Below are positions 1 through 6,138 of a DNA stretch of 6,283 nt, in pieces (within the stretch, counting starts at the first letter, position 1; each line of letters begins with the position of its first letter). Both the position numbers and the translations under genes were made by a program. This DNA is from Nitrospinae bacterium RIFCSPLOWO2_12_FULL_45_22 (GTDB lineage Bacteria > 2-12-FULL-45-22). Below the pieces are notes generated by a model. That model did not search any database and was not told the origin of the DNA. It was given only the letters and a program-made list of their open reading frames with translations. The stretch spans positions 1-6,283 of the forward strand of contig MHDQ01000204.1 in assembly GCA_001803565.1 (NCBI GenBank). Direction: 5' to 3'.

Positions 1-7
1 ATTTTTC

Positions 8-274
8 TCAATACGCACTTCCTCGTGGAAGGATGGCGTAAACATGAATAAGCTTTTTATTTTTGTCTGGTGTAAAGAGGATTCTCCAGTTCCCAACCCT
101 CATGCGATAATCCCCTCTGAGTTCTCCTGTTAAATGTCTGACATTGCGGTGCAGTAGCGGGTTCCCTTCATGCTCCAATTCTGCCAAGGCTTCCTTGATC
201 CTTTTTCTAATGTTTTTCCCCAGTTTCAGATATTGCTTTTCTGCGGTTGGCTTGATCTCAATCTTCCAGTTCAT
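8..274 (-). CDS. RelE/ParE-family toxin of a type II toxin-antitoxin pair
   Basis: This is an 88-residue basic protein of the RelE/ParE fold. The diagnostic part is the second half: the LTGELRGDYRMRVGNWRILF segment (residues 48-67), followed by a charged turn and IHVYAILPRGSAY at the C-terminus. This matches the family pattern of a Gly-Glu-Leu-Arg turn, a Tyr-Arg strand and a final beta strand. Arg53, Arg57, Arg59 and Arg64 are candidate functional residues. RelE members cleave mRNA on the ribosome and ParE members poison gyrase; the sequence does not decide which applies. The ATG at 274 is chosen because AAAGGG lies 10 nt upstream and MNWKIEIKP is a typical family start; a longer frame would begin with ten unlikely residues. 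The gene overlaps the antitoxin by 17 nt, implying coupled translation and a shared promoter. The frame is complete, with TGA at 8-10. Confidence 0.9.
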   Translation of the reverse strand: MNWKIEIKPTAEKQYLKLGKNIRKRIKEALAELEHEGNPLLHRNVRHLTGELRGDYRMRVGNWRILFTPDKNKKLIHVYAILPRGSAY

Positions 275-553: not shown

Positions 554-730
554 ATTTAACCGAGAAATACTCAGGGTGGTTAGCAAAATAAGGAAAGTGG
601 ATAAACTGGCATACTGTATTGTGAAGGATAGATTTCCGGTGGTAAGCAACACTATTGAATGCCCTTCATAAAGGGTAGACTTCTACGAGAAAGCGGGATT
701 TTAGGGAGGGGTTTTCACTGATCACGAGCC
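554..730. other. Gene-poor stretch, possibly holding decayed coding sequence
   Basis: There is no intact gene between the toxin-antitoxin promoter and the endonuclease-domain remnant. On the plus strand, one frame is open from 543 to 662 without a start codon (NREILRVVSKIRK, then LAYCIVKDRFPVV). After one stop, the same frame reads RVDFYEKAGF at 672-701, then a second stop, then GGVFTDHE. The FYEKAGF motif is reminiscent of the C-terminal part of GNAT acetyltransferases. Forty open codons can occur by chance at this base composition, so this is only a hint of a degraded gene. Confidence 0.25.
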
Positions 731-855
731 AGTAGTTACCGGGTTATGCCTCAGTTTGAGATAGCAGGTTACCGCATCGACTTAGTGGTCGAGGGGATGC
801 AGGGCCGTCTTGCGGTCGAGTGCGATGGTGATGCCTGGCATGGAGCCGAGCGTTA
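731..855 (+). pseudogene. Remnant of a restriction-endonuclease-fold domain, as found at the C-terminus of large helicases
   Basis: The plus strand encodes, without a start codon, YRVMPQFEIAGYRIDLVVEG followed by MQGRLAVECDGDAWHGAER (737-853). From memory this closely matches a PD-(D/E)xK-like nuclease module (Vsr/DUF559/REase_MTES_1575 type) found at the end of large superfamily 1 helicase-like proteins. In that module Arg-Ile-Asp and Glu-Cys-Asp-Gly supply the metal site. In intact relatives Trp-His-Gly is followed by a Pro-Glu-Arg-Tyr helix and a further 40 or so residues. Here the match ends at Ala-Glu-Arg plus two bases of the expected Tyr codon, exactly where the opposing UPF0175 gene begins to match its own family. 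Upstream the frame is stopped at 719-721. By eye the fragment is clearly more GC-rich than its surroundings, which suggests a foreign origin. It is a fragment, not a gene. Confidence 0.7.
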
Positions 856-1093
856 GTTGGCGCTGGAGCTCTTCTGGGGGAAAGTTAGCTATTGGTATAT
901 CATACTTAGCCATCAAATCAAAAAGAGTGTGCCTGTCTATGGCTAAAAGCTCGGCTGCTTTTCCCTGGGATATCTCCCCCTTTCGTAAAAGCTCTAAAAT
1001 TATTGTTTCCTTGCCCTTCCTTATGACTTCTTTGTCTTGTAAACTTTCTTCTGGTAGCTCAACCGGAAATTTTAAAACCACCTGCTTTGGCAT
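782..1093 (-). CDS. UPF0175 family protein (putative antitoxin) with an aberrant C-terminal tail
   Basis: This is a 103-residue frame. Residues 1-80 fit the UPF0175 family: an N-terminal strand (KQVVLKFPVELPEE), a helix ending ELLRKGEIS, then a helix-turn-helix-like QGKAAELLAIDRHTLFDLM and the closing DIPIANFPPEELQRQL. UPF0175 proteins are small DNA-binding-like proteins, often encoded beside PIN-domain toxins and considered antitoxins. The last 23 residues (TLGSMPGI onward) do not look like the family. They are the antisense reading of the plus-strand nuclease-domain fragment, so the native stop has been lost at a junction near 855. The ATG at 1093 is preferred to one at 1099, because AGGAGG at 1106-1101 is only 1 nt from the latter but 7 nt from the former. 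It follows the glutaredoxin-like gene by 26 nt. No toxin partner is visible downstream. Confidence 0.75.
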   Translation of the reverse strand: MPKQVVLKFPVELPEESLQDKEVIRKGKETIILELLRKGEISQGKAAELLAIDRHTLFDLMAKYDIPIANFPPEELQRQLTLGSMPGITIALDRKTALHPLDH

Positions 1094-1100
1094 CCTCATC

Positions 1101-1106
1101 CCTCCT
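1101..1106 (-). promoter_or_regulatory. Ribosome binding site deciding the UPF0175 start
   Basis: AGGAGG on the minus strand lies 7 nt before the ATG at 1093 and 1 nt before the ATG at 1099. The spacing supports the second ATG. The site sits in the 26-nt gap after the preceding stop, so this gene is probably translated from a shared message. Confidence 0.7.
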
Positions 1107-1119
1107 TTAATGATAGCTA

Positions 1120-3082: not shown

Positions 3083-3161
3083 ACCACCAAGGCACAAAGA
3101 ACACCAAGAAAAGCCAAGAATGTAATCTAGAGATTCTTTGTGTCCTTGGTGTCTTTGTGGT
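3083..3161. repeat. Imperfect inverted repeat made of degenerate ACCACAAAG units
   Basis: The arms at 3083-3110 and 3134-3161 are inverted copies agreeing at 23 of 28 positions, around a 23-bp centre. Each arm is itself built of degenerate units of about 9 bp (CACCAAGG, CACAAAGAA, CACCAAGAA). A pairing shifted by one unit also works, with a single-base gap. It fills most of the 121-bp gap between nrdR and the nuclease gene. From memory, related repeats rich in ACCACGAAGG-type units are scattered between genes in many environmental bacteria. As RNA it could form a long hairpin separating two transcription units, but no T-run follows, so I do not call it an intrinsic terminator. Confidence 0.75.
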
Positions 3162-3184
3162 AAAAAAGTGAAGGAAAGGGGAAT

Positions 3185-5995: not shown

Positions 5996-6138
5996 GTTAA
6001 GCTACTAGTAACAGTTCAGGTTCTTTGTCATTTCGAGCGCAGCGAGAAATCTTTCCGAGACCGGAGGTAAATAAAGATTCCTCCCTTAGGTCGGAAGGGA
6101 CATTTATTTTCGATAGAGGCTGAATTGTTAAGCTACTA
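5996..6138. repeat. Perfect 12-bp direct repeats flanking a palindromic element
   Basis: GTTAAGCTACTA occurs at 5996-6007 and again, identical, at 6127-6138, 131 bp apart. Between them lies the palindromic TGTC...GACA element. This arrangement resembles a small non-coding mobile element bracketed by a target duplication, though a tandem duplication or chance recombination could also make it. The left copy is 18 bp from the methyltransferase start. Confidence 0.6.
6026..6102. repeat. Dispersed palindromic repeat of the TGTCATTTCGAGCGCAGCGAG type
   Basis: The left arm begins TGTCATTTCGAGCGCAGCG at 6026 and ends AATCTTT at 6054. The right arm begins AAAGATTCCTCC at 6073 and ends GGGACA at 6102. 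The arms are inverted, matching best at their ends (TGTC, then GAATCTTT-like). From memory this is a widespread intergenic repeat family seen in many unrelated genomes. Its role is unknown. As RNA it would form a long imperfect hairpin. Confidence 0.7.

Follow-up and report, generated by a model that had tools for sequence, protein, structure and literature searches.

Proteins of the UPF0175 family (COG2886, PF03683) have been predicted to be the antitoxins of PIN toxins (PMC2701414). The DUF4011/Hhe-type helicases, for their part, carry an MTES_1575 nuclease domain at their C-terminal end. Moreover, the extension of proteins at the C-terminus by reading into formerly non-coding DNA has been described in yeast and Drosophila, with the warning that assembly errors can mimic such extensions and so produce false positives (PMC4494051). 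All three bear on a small locus in the genome of Nitrospinae bacterium RIFCSPLOWO2_12_FULL_45_22, a fragmented metagenome assembly of 321 contigs (GCA_001803565.1). The stretch analysed, here called the window, comprises 6,283 nt, positions 1 to 6,283 of contig MHDQ01000204.1 on the forward strand. On one side of the locus lies a ParE/RelE-like toxin gene (8-304), which has its own small upstream ORF (258-506) and is the sole toxin-like neighbour of the UPF0175 gene. An adjoining PIN toxin gene was recognised neither among the window ORFs read nor, by Pfam, in the neighbouring window proteins scanned, and Rfam gave zero matches within the window. Another UPF0175 gene of the same genome, on contig C22, adjoins an ORF that by eye resembles a PIN protein.

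The UPF0175 gene is found on the minus strand as an ORF of 103 aa (1093-782), or of 105 aa when read from an upstream ATG at 1099. The ATG at 1093 is preceded, at a distance of 7 nt, by the Shine-Dalgarno sequence AAAGGAGG (1101-1108, minus strand); therefore, the protein is probably 103 aa long, with a tail of 23 aa. The Pfam match covers residues 20-82 of the 105-aa reading with 41.3 bits, above the gathering cut-off of 27.9 bits, and ends at the codon 854-856. The conserved part thus corresponds to codons 1-80 counted from the ATG at 1093 (854-1093, minus strand), as also established by comparison with the closest relative, L018, from a Chloroflexi groundwater MAG, which is 78% identical across residues 2-82 and shares 63 of the 80 residues of codons 1-80. 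The differences between both genes over these 80 codons are distributed among the three codon positions as 12/5/44, the pattern of a conserved gene, which in this comparison with L018 indicates purifying selection on the core. In its HTH-like core, its size and its Pfam score above the cut-off, the protein agrees with the predicted antitoxins of its family (PF03683; PMC2701414), from which it differs in that its native C-terminus has been replaced.

On the opposite strand, a remnant of an MTES_1575 nuclease domain of DUF4011/Hhe-like helicases (ASSYRVMPQFEIAGYRIDLVVEGMQGRLAVECDGDAWHGAER) occupies positions 728-853 (plus strand) and is truncated at both ends. The plus-strand translation of 743-853 matches this restriction-like nuclease domain in Pfam with 40.5 bits, and a profile search of the genome returned 728-853 at 43.2 bits, both above the cut-off of 38.2 bits. 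Only profile positions 11-54 of 96 are covered (about 44 of 96), the open frame spans 44 aa, and in-frame stops are found on either side (719-721 and 854-856). The three best matches are intact helicases of other genomes, located in large open frames of about 1,260-1,800 codons, to which the remnant is 72-93% identical over 28-40 residues. In these helicases the alignment runs past the arginine encoded at 851-853 into (F/Y)EQDMARQR..., at which point the window has TAG. In NCBIfam the remnant scores best, though below threshold, against two antiphage proteins, the DUF4011 protein Hhe and ProA. The 42-residue segment of the window has the VECDGDAWHG motif in common with the DUF4011/Hhe-type helicases, but neither a complete nuclease domain nor the large open frame. 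Read in this way, the sequence is that of a pseudogene fragment lying on the strand opposite to the UPF0175 gene. A further small nuclease-like protein is encoded elsewhere in the same genome (G000:C215:1011-1439, minus strand), by an intact open frame of 142 aa whose MTES_1575 match stays below the cut-off (34.6 against 38.2 bits).

The two homologies meet at one point. An earlier sequence-only reading of this DNA had proposed that the family similarity of the protein extends to LQRQL, beyond which the antisense strand of the nuclease fragment is read as far as a stop at 782, with both family matches breaking near 855. The ORF and the Pfam matches bear this out, the UPF0175 and nuclease homologies both stopping within about 3 bases of 854. 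DNA similarity of the UPF0175 gene to L018 stops at 857-858, and in the 19 codons that follow codon 80 the differences from L018 by codon position become 14/13/15, as between unrelated sequences. Furthermore, the GC content changes in a step, from 58.6% in 743-853 to 42% in 854-1093. From the ends of both alignments, the collapse of the codon-position pattern and the change in GC, the breakpoint is therefore placed at 853-857. The bases TA (854-855) are compatible with both parents, with the nuclease F/Y codon TAy as well as with the UPF0175 codon, and microhomology at the junction would thus amount to at most about 2-3 nt. Judged from these alignments, the recombination scar in the UPF0175 gene is real.

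Beyond the junction, the reading frame continues through 23 codons, TLGSMPGITIALDRKTALHPLDH, antisense to the nuclease fragment, to a TAA stop at 784-782 (the whole at 782-853, minus strand). This tail has no homology to UPF0175 relatives. The relative L083 (genome G265), 62% identical, ends in ELERQRQDAHK, 5 residues past the junction and 85 aa in total, while L018 ends in HRQVQETEKRKISPASSKYPERN, 19 residues past the junction and 99 aa in total; the tail shares nothing with either end. Among the UPF0175 members whose C-termini were inspected (about 30, with 29 loci including L018 in the main set), none has the tail, and in those compared the conserved part is followed by no more than roughly 3-20 residues of other, unrelated sequence. 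The tail was accordingly rejected as a sequence of the family. No relative of the UPF0175 protein was found in viral contigs or in plasmids. Since other sequence follows the junction in the relatives, over 5 residues in L083 and 19 in L018, the native last 5-19 residues are, on this comparison, replaced together with the stop. The proposal that the gene had lost its stop codon is thus correct as regards the native stop, but imprecise in its wording, since native residues were replaced too and the change is more than mere stop loss. The 'new protein tail' of the same reading exists at the level of the ORF, as 23 codons, but it finds no support in conservation or structure and its length is that expected by chance: with the base composition of the fragment, antisense stops should occur every 37 codons on average, and a stretch of 23 or more open codons has P = 0.53. 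In an AlphaFold2 model of the 103 aa, a weak one built on single-sequence input (mean pLDDT 65.5), helices are assigned at residues 19-37, 43-50, 54-63 and 73-82; no secondary structure is assigned after residue 82, and pLDDT falls below 50 for residues 83-94. The tail is therefore predicted to be unstructured, and with its open length within chance expectation it looks accidental.

The sequence to the left of the nuclease remnant (622-697, plus strand) is one copy of a dispersed repeat, about 75 bp long, whose imperfect inverted arms (TTTCCGGTGGTAA...TTCTACGAGAAA) have the pattern TTTC..GTAGTAA / TTACTAC..GAAA. Nine copies exist in the genome: that of the window and those of contigs C261, C167, C132, C42, C240, C186 (two) and C315. 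A search of 385 other genomes at E <= 1e-4 gave no copy of the repeat. Its arms are 78% paired, against 28-58% when slid, and they show no covariation beyond that of shuffles. The segment that links the repeat to the nuclease remnant (698-768, plus strand) is common to contig C261, window positions 624-768 being 80% identical to C261:986-1131. Contig C261 contains the same join of repeat and nuclease, with the first residues of the nuclease segment, but its break falls some 85 bp earlier, corresponding to about position 770 of the window. The repeat-plus-nuclease unit thus pre-existed, the point of truncation differing from copy to copy.

The explanation that we hold to be highly probable is that illegitimate recombination in a decaying region cost the UPF0175 gene its native 3' end. 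In an intergenic region rich in toxin-antitoxin genes, recombination with little or no homology, most likely the end of a deletion or of an insertion, would have joined the 3' end of the otherwise conserved gene to a plus-strand helicase-nuclease remnant of the DUF4011/Hhe type that, as we infer the order of events, was already broken. The native last 5-19 residues and the stop would have been removed, and translation would then take in 23 antisense codons, open by chance, before reaching the TAA. With its HTH-like core intact, the protein could still bind DNA, and the tail would probably be an inert, disordered by-product. The unbroken locus was sought in close relatives and not found, the phylum being represented by two genomes, and the repeat and nuclease DNA is absent from the other one.

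That the contig is an assembly or binning chimera, joining two unrelated molecules at 854, is unlikely. The fragmentation of the genome, the abrupt shift in GC and homology at 854 and the failure to find a second copy of the junction (viral contigs searched) speak for it; against it, the left side is tied to its own genome through the repeat family and C261, the left end of the contig overlaps contig C240 by 94 bp, and a k-mer assembler should not be able to build a join on an overlap of 2-3 nt unless reads cross the junction. The antisense-derived sequence could also be conceived as a now functional C-terminus, a bacterial protein tail born de novo from the antisense of a defence-gene pseudogene, and the intact ORF, the good Shine-Dalgarno and the purifying selection on the core relative to L018 are in its favour. 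This is very improbable, as is its more concrete form, in which the tail alters how the antitoxin-like protein dimerises or binds a toxin, given that the tail is common to no relative, is as long as chance would make it and has no predicted structure. Hardly credible, finally, is a tail ancestral to a branch of UPF0175, with the plus-strand nuclease similarity incidental: L018 also extends 19 residues past the conserved part, so tails of this length do exist, but nothing is shared with L018 or L083, the nuclease match exceeds the Pfam cut-off and the identity to three intact helicases remains to be accounted for.

Compared with the stop-codon-loss extensions of yeast and Drosophila (PMC4494051), an existing gene of the window likewise reads on into formerly non-coding DNA, with the difference that a rearrangement severed its native end instead of leaving it to be read through. 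The case may thus be regarded as a rearrangement version of a known process of C-terminal extension. The event is one of ordinary genome decay, and it provides an example, near base level, of how chance sequence comes to replace the end of a bacterial gene where a region next to toxin-antitoxin genes decays. Being single and unreplicated, the case mainly illustrates a known process.

More may be learnt about this genome from the dispersed repeat that is joined to the debris. Judged by eye, eight of its nine copies follow an ORF on the same strand, on its 3' side. The sequence directly after the repeat differs among copies yet recurs in pairs: C132 and the second copy of C186 (C186b) are 91% identical over 248 bp, C240 and C315 94% over 84 bp, and the window and C261 80% over 146 bp. 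The C261 copy is followed by a weak match to PIN, which at 20.9 bits falls short of the cut-off of 23.6 bits. An integron attC site was considered for the repeat and rejected, the expected GTT/AAC core boxes not being visible by eye. The overlap with C240 is exact, window positions 1-94 (the contig start) being the end of that contig; if both contigs join, the ParE-like gene region would be flanked by two direct copies of the repeat within about 1.1 kb. Two other repeats were seen in the window. An intergenic inverted repeat at about 3085-3165 (accaaggcacaaagaacaccaagaa ... ttctttgtgtccttggtgtctttgtggt) resembles the palindromic intergenic repeats of many environmental genomes, and a between-gene stretch at about 6025-6115 contains 'tcatttcgagcgcagcgagaaatcttt', a motif found again in other bacteria as a short palindromic repeat.
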